Assembly (NCBI GenBank): GCA_020344215.1 | Contig: CP070815.1 | Location: 504,946-568,945 of the forward strand | DNA from: Gemmatimonadota bacterium | GTDB lineage: Bacteria > Gemmatimonadota > Gemmatimonadetes > Palauibacterales > KS3-K002 | Direction of reading: 5' to 3' | DNA: 64,000 nucleotides | Shown here: piece by piece, positions 10,947 to 22,635 of the stretch | Position numbering within the stretch: position 1 is the stretch's first letter | Layout of the letters: each line of letters begins with the position of its first letter | The notes under the pieces: generated by a model | What the model was told of the DNA's origin: nothing | Seen by the model: the letters and a program-made list of their open reading frames with translations, nothing else | The model's database searches: none | Position numbers and translations under genes: made by a program

Positions 10947-11480
10947 TCACACTGTCAGCTTCCGCTTCGGTAACGCCCACTCCGCATCCGGATCATCCAT
11001 CGCCAGTCGGTTGATTCCGCCGTGAAACCGGCTTTGAATGCGGCCGTATTCGTTCTGCATGTCGGGATCGGGATGCTGCCAGTCGTGAATGTAGACCACC
11101 CGCTCGACACCTGCCTGCAGCAGTTCTTTCGTGCAGCCGAAGCAGGGGCGCATTGTCGAATAGATGGTCGCGCCTTCGACCGAGATTCCAAAGCGCGCCG
11201 CCGCCAACAGACAGTTCTGCTCTGCGTGGACACAGATGCACAGGTCGTATCCCTTGCCGGACTCGAACCGCTCAGGGTGCGCACAGCGTTCGCAGCCGCC
11301 GTCCAGGCAGTTAGGCATCTTCGACGGGGTGCCGTTGTAGCCGGTGGAGAGCACGCGCCAATCTTTGACGATGACGGCGCCGACGCGGCTGCCGAGGCAA
11401 TTGGCGCGCTTGCGGACGGCTATGGCGAGGCCCATGAAGTAGTGATCGAAGTCGGGTCGTTCCATCTCTGGTCGATTCAT
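10947..11480 (-). CDS. dCMP deaminase / ComEB-type cytidine deaminase
   Basis: 177 residues. Converts dCMP to dUMP, feeding dTMP synthesis. The zinc-binding set is intact: CVHAEQNCLLAAA (His and catalytic Glu) and PCFGCTKELL (two Cys). An additional Cys/His cluster (MPNCLDGGCERCAH) matches the second zinc site of the dCMP deaminase family. The C-terminus (about 30 residues after DWQHPDPDMQN) is a modest extension. The ATG at 11480 overlaps the stop of the upstream glycosidase (ATGA), so the two are translationally coupled although their functions appear unrelated. Confidence 0.9.
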   Translation of the reverse strand: MNRPEMERPDFDHYFMGLAIAVRKRANCLGSRVGAVIVKDWRVLSTGYNGTPSKMPNCLDGGCERCAHPERFESGKGYDLCICVHAEQNCLLAAARFGISVEGATIYSTMRPCFGCTKELLQAGVERVVYIHDWQHPDPDMQNEYGRIQSRFHGGINRLAMDDPDAEWALPKRKLTV

Positions 11481-19151: not shown

Positions 19152-20162
19152 TCATCCGCCTGCGTCGTTCGTGGGGGCATGAGCCCTGGCCCAGGTGCGC
19201 TCCACGCTGTCGACGATGGCCGGGTACACGATGTATCGGCGGAACGGATCGATGATCGCCATATAGACTGGAGTGAGGGCGCTCGTCTCGCTAACGTAGA
19301 TGGCCCAGTACATCGTATAACCGTCGCTGGCGGGCTCCATCGCAATGCAGAAGAACGCGTGAGCCGTGCGGTTCATCATTTCGGCCAGCGACTCGTTCTC
19401 GAAAGTGTAGACAGTCTTGAAGAGATCACTGCCCGCGCCAGGCTGCTCCAGAGTTCGGGTACGATCGTCATCGGTCAGCCGGTTAACGTAGGATGCTGAC
19501 GTGTCGAAGTGGCGCTCGTCGTCCCAAGCGAGCACTCCGCCCAGGAACATCCGCAGGCCGACGAGTACGGCAACTGTCGTGTTCGCGTCGAACGGGGACT
19601 GGCTGCTGAGAATCTCTTGGGCGTCCCGGAGCGTGAGTCCCGCGCTACCGCCGCGGAGCTGGAAGACCCAGACGTCGTGCAGCGGCACATCGGCAAGGAA
19701 CGAATTGACGCGGAAGTCCTTGACCTGAAACTCCGCGGGGGCGAGGCGCGGCCTGTCTCCCAGTGTCGCTGACCACAGGAAGACGAAGTTGACGAGCGCG
19801 GCGGCGCAGACGAGGCCGATCCGCCGGAGCGTTCCCCCGAGTCCTCCGAGGCCCGCGAATACTCCTGCCGCTGCGACGGCCAGCGCCGCAGCCAGCAGCC
19901 AGGGGGCCACTCTGAGCGGTCCGGCCGCGACCGCTCCGAGGAGTGTGCCGCTGGCTATCCAGAGAGTCCAGGGCGGCGGCTCCATGCGCCCGGCGCGCCC
20001 CGCAAGCACGACGGCGACGATCGCCAGCACCACGACGACGACGTCGGCGAGCAGCACGGCCGCGACCGGTGCGTAAGGTGTGGTGGGCCAGCTGGCGACG
20101 GCGGCAACGAGCGTCACGGCGGCGCCAAGCAGCGTCATGACCAGCGTGGGCAGTCTTTTCAT
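19152..20162 (-). CDS. Membrane protein with C-terminal DUF2867 domain
   Basis: 336 residues. Residues 1-135 contain four or five hydrophobic helices. Residues 150-325 match the DUF2867 pattern (FRVNSFLADVPLHDVWVF, LFKTVYTFENESLAEMMNRT, IDPFRRYIVYPAIVD). DUF2867 occurs alone or fused to SDR-type enzymes and has no firm biochemical role. The gene starts 14 bases after the AhpD-like gene in the same direction, so it is probably the last gene of the MarR-controlled operon. No obvious ribosome binding site is seen, suggesting coupling or reinitiation. Confidence 0.7.
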   Translation of the reverse strand: MKRLPTLVMTLLGAAVTLVAAVASWPTTPYAPVAAVLLADVVVVVLAIVAVVLAGRAGRMEPPPWTLWIASGTLLGAVAAGPLRVAPWLLAAALAVAAAGVFAGLGGLGGTLRRIGLVCAAALVNFVFLWSATLGDRPRLAPAEFQVKDFRVNSFLADVPLHDVWVFQLRGGSAGLTLRDAQEILSSQSPFDANTTVAVLVGLRMFLGGVLAWDDERHFDTSASYVNRLTDDDRTRTLEQPGAGSDLFKTVYTFENESLAEMMNRTAHAFFCIAMEPASDGYTMYWAIYVSETSALTPVYMAIIDPFRRYIVYPAIVDSVERTWARAHAPTNDAGG

Positions 20163-20175
20163 GGCCGTTCATCTG

Positions 20176-20481
20176 TTAGTACGATGAACGACCGCTTTTC
20201 GTTTTGCGCTTCTCGACGGCCCGCAGCTGTGCCTCACGGAACGTGGCACGCACCCTGCCGCCCGCCACGGCCATCACGATGGACTGGACGGCATCGATCT
20301 CGTCTTCCGTTATTCCCATATCTCTGGCAACGCCAGAGTACTCCGCCATTCAAGGATAGCAGCCCACTGCCATGGCGGACGCCAGGTGGAGTAGCAGCGT
20401 CGTCCGCTCGTCGAGGACGTCGTTGTGGCGCGCCGAACCGTAGAACGCATTGAAGCGCTTCTGTCGCTCGCTGATGCGCAT
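20176..20481 (-). CDS. AhpD-like carboxymuconolactone-decarboxylase-family selenoprotein (CxxU)
   Basis: 101 residues if the in-frame TGA at 20352-20350 is read as selenocysteine (residue 44). The upstream part ends MAVGCYP and the TGA is followed by MAEYSGVARDMGITEDEI, so TGA stands exactly where AhpD/CMD proteins have the second Cys of their redox CxxC. The coding frame continues with a normal C-terminus (VQSIVMAVAGGRVRA) to TAA at 20178-20176. GGGAGGAG lies six bases before the ATG. A SECIS-like hairpin follows the TGA (separate entry). AhpD-like proteins are thiol peroxidase/reductase partners, and Sec-containing members of this fold are established in bacteria. It lies between arsN2-like and DUF2867 genes. 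The alternatives are a 43-residue truncated product or a sequencing error. Confidence 0.85.
20322..20338 (-). promoter_or_regulatory. Candidate bacterial SECIS element
   Basis: On the minus strand CTCTGGC-GTT-GCCAGAG forms a perfect 7-bp stem with a three-base loop. The loop begins after 18 bases counted from the TGA. The bacterial SECIS consensus is a small stem-loop within the reading frame, 16-37 bases after UGA, with G in the first or second loop position, usually followed by U. This hairpin meets each condition (loop GUU). Confidence 0.8.
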
Positions 20482-20499
20482 GATCTCTCCTCCCTTTGC

Positions 20500-21036
20500 T
20501 TACCCGCAGGCACAACTCTTCAGGTCGTGATGAGATGCTGGCGCGAGATCGTGTAGCGAGAGAGCCGGCACGATGAGACGACGCCGCGCTCGATGCACTT
20601 CCATATGCTTGACCATGCTCGTCGCGCTGGAACAGCAGCAGGAGGTGAACTCAACGGAGCCTGTGACCGCCACCGGGACCTGAGACCGATCGACGGGCTC
20701 GAAGCCGTGGCGCGCGAAGAAGCCCTCGGCGCCCTCGGTGAGCAGGTGCACCTCGACCACGCGCAGCCTGCACGCAAGATCGAGTGCCGCCTCTGTGAGC
20801 CGGTCACCGAGGCCTCTGCCTCGCTGGGCCGCAGCAACGGCCACGGATCGCAGAAACGCATGCTGCCCGTACAGTTCCAACGCGGCGCAGCCGACGAGTT
20901 CACCGTCCGTCCTGGCGACCAAGATGAGCGTGCCGGGACTGCAGGCGAGTCCGGCCTCGGGGAGGCCGCACGCGTTCAAGAGACTCAGTACCGCCGGAAG
21001 GTCCAATGGTTCGGCGATTTCGACTCTCGGTTCCAT
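20500..21036 (-). CDS. arsN2: ArsN2-like GNAT N-acetyltransferase
   Basis: 178 residues. GNAT core: LILVARTDGELVGCAALELY, VAVAAAQRGRGLGDRLTEAA (acetyl-CoA P-loop RGRGLG) and GFFARHGFEPVDRSQVP. The phrase VEFTSCCCSSATSMVKHM aligns with the AEFASLCPASA tail typical of arsenic-operon ArsN2 proteins. The C-terminus is extended by about 30 residues and ends LKSCACG, adding Cys to the run of three Cys in the core; these could bind a metalloid (inference). GGAGGA precedes the ATG. The gene lies 27 bases after the permease and 18 before the AhpD-like gene. ArsN-type enzymes acetylate amine-bearing compounds, including organoarsenicals in one subgroup. Confidence 0.75.
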   Translation of the reverse strand: MEPRVEIAEPLDLPAVLSLLNACGLPEAGLACSPGTLILVARTDGELVGCAALELYGQHAFLRSVAVAAAQRGRGLGDRLTEAALDLACRLRVVEVHLLTEGAEGFFARHGFEPVDRSQVPVAVTGSVEFTSCCCSSATSMVKHMEVHRARRRLIVPALSLHDLAPASHHDLKSCACG

Positions 21037-21062: not shown

Positions 21063-22067
21063 CTAAGCGGCTATTGCCTGGAACAGGTACCCGATCCCGA
21101 TCACCTCAACGGTAAAGACCGCGACGATACGCCAGAGCAATCCCCTGGGAATGATCCGGGAGAGGAGTATCCCCTCGGGTAGACTGAGACCGTTGGCGCC
21201 CATCAGGAATGCGGTTACCGCGCCGATCCCTACTCCCTTGGCCAGCAGCGTCGAGGCCAGCGGCAGTAGCACCAGGGTGCTCGCGTAGACGGGAACGCTG
21301 AGCAGCGTCGCGGTGGGAACCGCCCAGGCATTCCCCGGTCCGGCGGCCTTGAGAATCAGGTCCTCCGGGACGTACCCGTAAATCGCAGCACCAACGGCCA
21401 CGGCGGCGACTAAGGGCAGCGCGAACTTCCTCAGATCGCTCAGGCTCCGAACGAAGGCCCGGGCGACCCTGTCTTGGAAACGTGCCGTGGCCACGGGGGA
21501 TGACACCACGAGAGGCAGTGCCAGCGTTGCCGAGCCTCGCACAGGCCCGACAGTGCTCATCTTCATGGGCTCGGTCAGATCCCCGGCGAGTGTCGTTGAA
21601 GCGCCGCAGCCACAGCCGGGTACCTGCGCTGCAGCGCCTGCCCGCCCTACGAGGCCATCTTCGCGCCGGTTCCAGTGGGCCACGACCACGCCGCCCAGCG
21701 CCGCAGCCAACAGCCCCGTTGAAGTGTAGAGAGCCGCGTACTCAACGCCTATGACGCTCCACAACAGCGCGAACGCCACCGGACTGATGAGTGGAGACGC
21801 GATGAGGAAGGCCACCAACGGCGCGGTCGGCACGCCGGCCAGGCGCATGCCGTTCACGATCGGCACCGTGGAGCAAGTACAGAACGGTGTGGCCGCCCCA
21901 AGCGCCGTTGCCAGCGGCACCGTCGAGTAGGCGGACCCTCCACCCAGCCAGCGCTGAATCCGCTCCGGCGTCAGTGCCTCGACCAGCAGGTAGACCAGCG
22001 TGCTGATCAGCAAGAAGAGCGGTACGAGTTCCGCGAGCAATACGAGACCGAATCGAAGCGCTGCCAT
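21063..22067 (-). CDS. DUF318/ArsP-type metalloid or organoarsenical efflux permease
   Basis: 334 residues from ATG 22067 (MAALRFGLVLLAELVP). An in-frame TTG at 22082 is the alternative. About eight TM helices occur in two halves. The signature ATPFCTCSTVPIVNG in the first half is typical of the DUF318 permease family, which includes ArsP (trivalent organoarsenical efflux) and SO_0444-type transporters. A central cytoplasmic loop contains PGCGCGAS, a likely metalloid-binding site. No ribosome binding site is seen, and an operator covers the start codon, so the message may be leaderless if a promoter acts here. The substrate cannot be fixed from sequence. Confidence 0.8.
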   Translation of the reverse strand: MAALRFGLVLLAELVPLFLLISTLVYLLVEALTPERIQRWLGGGSAYSTVPLATALGAATPFCTCSTVPIVNGMRLAGVPTAPLVAFLIASPLISPVAFALLWSVIGVEYAALYTSTGLLAAALGGVVVAHWNRREDGLVGRAGAAAQVPGCGCGASTTLAGDLTEPMKMSTVGPVRGSATLALPLVVSSPVATARFQDRVARAFVRSLSDLRKFALPLVAAVAVGAAIYGYVPEDLILKAAGPGNAWAVPTATLLSVPVYASTLVLLPLASTLLAKGVGIGAVTAFLMGANGLSLPEGILLSRIIPRGLLWRIVAVFTVEVIGIGYLFQAIAA

Positions 22068-22085
22068 AGTTGCATATACCAACTA
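22067..22085 (-). promoter_or_regulatory. Second MarR-type operator, at permease start
   Basis: TAGTTG-CATATAC-CAACTA, a perfect inverted repeat with 6-bp arms and a 7-base spacer. It matches the arms and spacing of the operator before marR (22659-22681). It covers the permease ATG. A TATATG placed 5 bases before the ATG could serve as a -10 box for a leaderless transcript (inference). Confidence 0.6.
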
Positions 22086-22131: not shown

Positions 22132-22635
22132 TCAATCGAGACTACAACACGTGCCGCCGGTGGTGCTCACTCGCTCCTTCGCCGCTTGGGCCAGCCGTCC
22201 GATGAGCTCGATCATCGCCGCCCGCACATCGGGATCGAAGTCGGCGATGAGCCGCTTCTCACGTTCTTCAATGTCGTCCCTGATGGATTCGTAGAGCAGC
22301 CGGCCGGGTTCCGTGAGATCGAGGAGGACGGCGCGCCGATCATCTTCGTGAGGTCGCCGGCGCAGGAGCTTCTTCCGCTCGATGGCGTTGGCGACGCGGC
22401 TCACCGTGCTCTTGTCGAGGTACAGCAGGCTCGCCAGCTCATTCAACGTGAGGGGCCCGTGCCGGGCCACGCTCTCCAGAGCGTAGTACTGGGTGACGGA
22501 AACGTCCTGGCAGCAGATCCGGTCGCGATCCCGGAACTGATAGATACGGATCAGGTCCGACAGGGCGTCGTAGAATGCCACGGCGTCGCGGTCGAGTGCG
22601 GGATCGGCGGCTCTGGAGGTCTCGGTTCCAGTCAT
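22132..22635 (-). CDS. MarR-family repressor with Cys pairs
   Basis: 167 residues from ATG 22635 (GAGG seven bases upstream). The winged-helix core shows VTQYYALESVARHGPLTLNE, LLYLDKSTVSRVANAIE and RRRPHEDDRRAVLLDLTE, the MarR recognition helix and wing. Two Cys pairs, RICCQDVS near residue 41 and TCCSLD at the C-terminus, are unusual for MarR and could form a metalloid or thiol-reactive sensor site. Its own promoter -10 overlaps a palindrome, and a second copy lies at the next gene, so it probably represses itself and the operon. An upstream start at 22773 would extend past the promoter and is rejected. Confidence 0.85.
   Translation of the reverse strand: MTGTETSRAADPALDRDAVAFYDALSDLIRIYQFRDRDRICCQDVSVTQYYALESVARHGPLTLNELASLLYLDKSTVSRVANAIERKKLLRRRPHEDDRRAVLLDLTEPGRLLYESIRDDIEEREKRLIADFDPDVRAAMIELIGRLAQAAKERVSTTGGTCCSLD

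Follow-up and report, generated by a model that had tools for sequence, protein, structure and literature searches.

The reading frame at positions 20176-20481 (minus strand) of the window, by which we mean the whole 64,000-nucleotide stretch analyzed, is interrupted by a TGA and raises two questions: is this TGA decoded as selenocysteine (Sec), and what would a selenoprotein do at this place in the genome? The frame runs from an ATG at 20481 to a TAA at 20176-20178 and comprises 101 residues, with a single internal TGA at 20350-20352, and a Shine-Dalgarno sequence, GGGAGGAG (20487-20494, minus strand), lies 5 nt ahead of the ATG. Read with Sec at the TGA, the product is MRISERQKRFNAFYGSARHNDVLDERTTLLLHLASAMAVGCYP-U-MAEYSGVARDMGITEDEIDAVQSIVMAVAGGRVRATFREAQLRAVEKRKTKSGRSSY, in which the local context AVGCYPUMAEY holds the motif C41-Y-P-U44; we refer to this protein as AhpD(U). 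It matches PF02627 at 41.6 bits (E = 1.2e-10), over the gathering cut-off of 23. A gene caller that treats TGA as a stop would give a fragment of at most 43 residues or a wrong-frame ORF, and standard annotation therefore does not show the protein. An earlier note on this DNA had claimed that the frame reads through the TGA at the second cysteine of a CxxC pair and on to the TAA, with a strong Shine-Dalgarno sequence in front and a SECIS-type hairpin behind; its coordinates, spacing and sequences for both gene and hairpin are exact.

The hairpin (20322-20338, minus strand), CUCUGGC-GUU-GCCAGAG, has a 7-bp stem and a GUU loop with a folding energy of -11.1 kcal/mol, and its stem and loop lie 11 nt and 18 nt from the TGA, respectively. 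The published limits for bacterial SECIS (bSECIS) elements are a loop of 3-9 nt, a stem of 4-16 bp, a minimum free energy (MFE) of at most -7.5, a G within the first two loop positions and a spacing of 16-37 nt (PMC13188914, Fig. 2 legend), and the window hairpin is within all of them. As a single sequence, however, it is weak and not decisive evidence. Folding 56 nt gives the hairpin as the centroid, whereas the MFE structure differs (z = -1.15), and a scan for open-frame TGA codons with a perfect 7-bp SECIS-like hairpin returns two sites in the window versus a mean of 1.0 per shuffled window. The other of the two, at 10949 (minus strand), is simply where a deaminase-like gene normally ends. 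An Rfam search gave no match at the gathering threshold or at E <= 1, the hairpin being outside Rfam coverage. With chance hits this frequent, the case for a selenoprotein rests on comparison.

The source genome, a single contig of 4.74 Mb, carries the complete Sec machinery: it has selA (452.6 bits), selB (365.7 bits) and selD (371.9 bits, with an in-frame TGA of its own), and the tRNA-Sec gene, selC, is present with anticodon TCA (77.2 bits). The same genome holds other candidate selenoprotein genes with a hairpin 3' of each TGA. These are SelD, with Sec in HGAGUACK (807488-808405, minus strand); an ArsM-like methyltransferase with an in-frame TGA in KGUIAG (2280550-2281320, minus strand; hairpin -22 kcal/mol), which is probably a further selenoprotein; and a second CMD-family protein with the motif CEYU near 2181097 (plus strand), whose TGA is followed by a 7-bp hairpin with a GGU loop.

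A first search of genome contigs yielded 12 relatives of AhpD(U). The corresponding codon is TGA in 11 of them and encodes Cys in L030 (Phycisphaerales), and each of the 12 genomes has a selB match over the cut-off. After searches in the order, the phylum and other phyla, the TGA set comprises 28 standalone loci, the window included, and the protein is conserved on both sides of the TGA codon. Going by record titles, the named members with the TGA form come from Gemmatimonadota, where it is rare (5 of 395 genomes), and from Desulfobacterales, other 'Deltaproteobacteria' (which take a Myxococcota placement in the protein tree), Neomarinimicrobiota (Fidelibacterota), Anaerolineales (Chloroflexota) and Zixiibacteriota. 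Cys (TGT/TGC) stands at the U44 codon in L030, L066, L069, L070, L072 and L109, and L030 and L066 read CYPC at the Sec site. In the protein tree the window groups with L021 and L022 and then with L024, and the Cys rows are long-branched. A search of viral contigs gave no relatives, and a plasmid search gave one distant Cys relative. More distant CxxU AhpD domains occur in frames of 344-489 codons with hairpins of their own (L073, L074 and L075), and these are possible fusion selenoproteins.

All 28 TGA loci bear the hairpin at identical spacing, 23 of them with 7/7 pairs and five with 6/7. For the 26 distinct sequences, pairing holds in 97.3% of cells and two-sided changes occur in six of the seven pairs; the covariation score (0.425) was reached in 0 of 500 shuffles, and sliding the partner by 1-3 columns lowers pairing to 24-57%. 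For example, relatives have YFGVAK (TTT...AAA) where the window has YSGVAR (TCT...AGA), so that two non-synonymous changes, F to S (TTT to TCT) and K to R (AAA to AGA), keep one stem pair. Given the residues, the probability of the observed pairing from synonymous codons is 0.006-0.5 per locus, with a product over loci of about 1e-26 if independence is assumed, although the loci are not independent. Among Cys homologues, 2-4 of the 7 positions pair. The hairpin has thus been kept by covariation in TGA homologues and is absent from Cys homologues. Three checks proposed along with the read-through, namely sel genes in the genome, Cys homologues at the TGA position and conservation of the hairpin, came out in its favor, the relatives stand in for a fourth, an independent assembly, and incorporation of Sec at position 44 is almost certain from the comparative data. 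SelB would act on the hairpin just past the UGA and deliver Sec-tRNA(Sec), with translation then continuing to the TAA.

What kind of protein is made is suggested by its family and predicted structure. The AlphaFold model of AhpD(U) is all-helical (pLDDT 81, pTM 0.56), and its best PDB matches are 3bey, 1vke and 7y4r, the last being RclX (TM about 0.5, best E = 1.6e-3); since the model was built from 13 sequences and these matches are moderate, only the fold class is taken from it. A sequence-profile match to 3bey (E = 2.5e-7) points the same way, and AhpD(U) thus belongs to the CMD/AhpD family, with a predicted helical fold and a CxxC-type pair. Such a family, fold and set of nearest solved structures would also suit a general antioxidant, an AhpD-type peroxidase or disulfide reductase whose arsenic and mercury setting reflects metal oxidative stress. 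However, canonical AhpD of M. tuberculosis has the motif CxHCxxxH, in which the histidines form a proton relay, and these histidines are absent from all 13 aligned sequences, where P43 and Y48 are invariant. With C-x-P-U-x3-Y in place of C-x-H-C-x3-H, the family lacks the classical proton relay. A selenol ionises with less help, and the motif favors, though it does not prove, selenol/thiol chemistry unlike that of the known AhpD peroxidase. No AhpC or AhpF partner was recognized adjoining AhpD(U), which also speaks against an antioxidant. The description of the protein as AhpD-like in the earlier note therefore stands for the fold, but an AhpD-like peroxidase is not established.

The neighboring genes point to arsenic. 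In the window, a MarR-family regulator (22132-22635), an ArsP_1 family permease (21063-22082; PF03773, with a CTCS motif), the arsenic-resistance N-acetyltransferase ArsN2 (20500-21036; NF040501, 131.6 bits, over the cut-off of 125), AhpD(U) and a DUF2867 membrane protein (19152-20162) follow one another on the minus strand in this order. ArsN2 and AhpD(U) are 18 nt apart, and the DUF2867 gene starts 13 nt past the AhpD(U) stop. The permease is over the Pfam cut-off and under those of the SaoE and SO_0444 models. This run is an ars-type operon with recognized arsenic genes, as the claim of a metalloid-resistance-type operon had it, and the arrangement is partly retained in relatives (MarR-permease-ArsN2-AhpD(U) in L021 and MarR-ArsN2-AhpD(U)-DUF2867 in L022). 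The MarR protein has vicinal-Cys motifs, RICCQD and, near the C-terminus, GGTCC (within STTGGTCC), which are conserved in L021 and L022, and it is a candidate metalloid sensor.

In other relatives the family is tied to arsM and hgcAB besides, a setting wider than the resistance operon first described. The arsM gene precedes AhpD(U) in L026 and L085 (NF008823, 327 and 343 bits, respectively) and, by homology, in L027 and L028; an ArsR/SmtB-type gene lies ahead of the arsM-AhpD(U) pair in L026, L027 and L028, and acr3 adjoins in L027 (379 bits), with an acr3 homolog in L028. ArsR lies upstream of AhpD(U) in L095 and L096. Between the two genes in L095 (-605 to -393 relative to the CxxU motif) is an ORF for a 70-aa Cys-rich protein (AGCCIP, EECCPP) that has no NCBIfam match. 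In L026, L085, L086 and L089, hgcA (411-446 bits, cut-off 275) and HgcB-like ferredoxin genes adjoin AhpD(U) on the same strand, and in L026 and L085 they lie on one side of AhpD(U) with arsM on the other. Moreover, HgcA is over its cut-off in 17 of the 23 carrier genomes outside Gemmatimonadota versus 5 of 39 controls (P = 3e-6, pooled), the controls being genomes of two phyla without the TGA gene, as listed, irrespective of Sec use or habitat; by phylum, the controls with HgcA number 3/20 and 2/19 (within-phylum P = 7e-4 and 5e-4). None of the five Gemmatimonadota carriers, the source genome included, has HgcA, and the mercury link is therefore not directly applicable to the window.

These neighborhoods suggest that AhpD(U) is probably, taken as a whole, a selenoprotein that handles organo-arsenic, and in some relatives organo-mercury, by Sec-based thiol/redox chemistry. 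The organo-metal(loid) role as such, judged from gene neighborhoods, has a little better than an even chance. The pair C41-x-x-U44 would serve as a selenenyl-sulfide redox couple or as a soft-metal thiol/selenol site, so that the protein would be a Sec-based thiol-disulfide oxidoreductase or a metalloid-thiol carrier. It may keep arsenic, or its ArsM, ArsN2 or permease partners, reduced, with arsenic thiol-bound and trivalent for methylation, modification or efflux; that it is a reductase in a specific arsenic step is a tentative suggestion only. A recognized arsenic or mercury gene adjoins in 11 of the 27 loci with adequate flank, and none does in the other 16. The role of AhpD(U) may therefore be broader, and these 16 loci are what a general antioxidant would lead one to expect. 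Nevertheless, the repeated presence of arsM and hgcAB beside the gene across several phyla and the enrichment of HgcA among carriers argue against an antioxidant, which we regard as rather unlikely.

Two weaker explanations remain to be weighed. AhpD(U) might handle selenium itself, for example by protecting or delivering reduced selenium, since a Cys homolog with the motif CLPC lies directly downstream of putative selA/selB ORFs in Photobacterium sp. DA100 (L109, NZ_CP119424.1); this homolog is distant (39.5%), however, and no sel gene was recognized adjoining the Sec forms in the neighborhood listing, which makes such a function quite improbable. It is scarcely credible that the TGA really ends translation, belongs to a pseudogene, arose in sequencing or has been reassigned, with a chance hairpin beside it, and the comparative data refute this, for although the single-sequence hairpin is not significant, the genome has the full sel machinery, 28 loci share TGA and hairpin with protein conserved on both sides, a sequencing error is untenable when 27 further loci have TGA at this codon, and TGA ends other genes of the window, such as the DUF2867 gene at 19152, which rules out reassignment.

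The organo-metal(loid) reading sets AhpD(U) beside several known systems. That selenium-containing AhpD-like proteins are known had been said at the outset, and in the parts of the sources covered CxxU proteins of the CMD/AhpD type are indeed catalogued (PMC9312934, PMC13188914), including a CMD-like CxxU selenoprotein of PF02627 from a marine metagenome, with MBW1767730.1 as representative. This entry shares Pfam family and CxxU motif with AhpD(U), its table description states neither operon context nor function, and, compared by that description only, it may belong to the AhpD(U) subfamily. ArsM-AhpD Sec fusions (NF041537) are catalogued as well, as is Sec in HgcB.

Also in favor of the organo-metal(loid) reading, the best NCBIfam matches of AhpD(U) are the AhpD parts of NF041537 (arsenite methyltransferase/AhpD domain selenoprotein; 42.0 bits) and of NF045649 (MduS; 49.2 bits), both of which have CxxU and an arsenic or methyltransferase link like AhpD(U). 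These are, however, methyltransferase fusions of 338-345 positions, whereas AhpD(U) is a standalone protein of 101 aa, and arsM lies beside AhpD(U) in relatives, whereas the window has none next to the gene. Because AhpD(U) is one domain only, it scores under the curated cut-offs of the Sec-fusion models, and as a whole protein it is not an NF041537 (ArsM_AhpD_UU) member (42 bits versus 510, on the AhpD part only). The GSU3128 family (NF041047, a distant AhpD homolog) is likewise a small standalone CxxU AhpD-like selenoprotein, but with 32.9 bits, where the cut-off is 110, AhpD(U) falls into a different subfamily. Similarly, the arsenosugar biosynthesis-associated peroxidase-like protein (TIGR04169) resembles AhpD(U) in being AhpD-like and in an arsenic pathway, and AhpD(U) scores 26.5 bits versus its cut-off of 120. 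Clusters of hgcAB with flanking arsenic genes have been described (McDaniel et al. 2020, PMC7438021), and AhpD(U) relatives sit in hgcAB clusters with arsM and arsR of this kind, whereas the source genome has no HgcA match; the passages covered of that paper do not mention this selenoprotein. In the papers covered we found no account of clusters of the ArsN2/ArsP, arsM or hgcAB type that contain a CYPU protein as a standalone gene, although other papers may mention the family. The Sec-containing CMD/AhpD type was thus known before, and the new part is the genomic link.

That link consists in the recurrence of a Sec protein in clusters for arsenic methylation, arsenic resistance and mercury methylation. 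It is possible, though we think it unlikely, that the CYPU subfamily is a dedicated organo-metal(loid) selenoenzyme, which ArsM, hgcAB mercury methylation and organoarsenical resistance of the ArsN2/ArsP type would share as a Sec-dependent partner for redox chemistry or metal transfer; if so, it would be a direct biochemical link from selenium to methylmercury and methylarsenic metabolism. Should the link prove causal, the supply of selenium could affect the speciation of arsenic and mercury via a definable enzyme.
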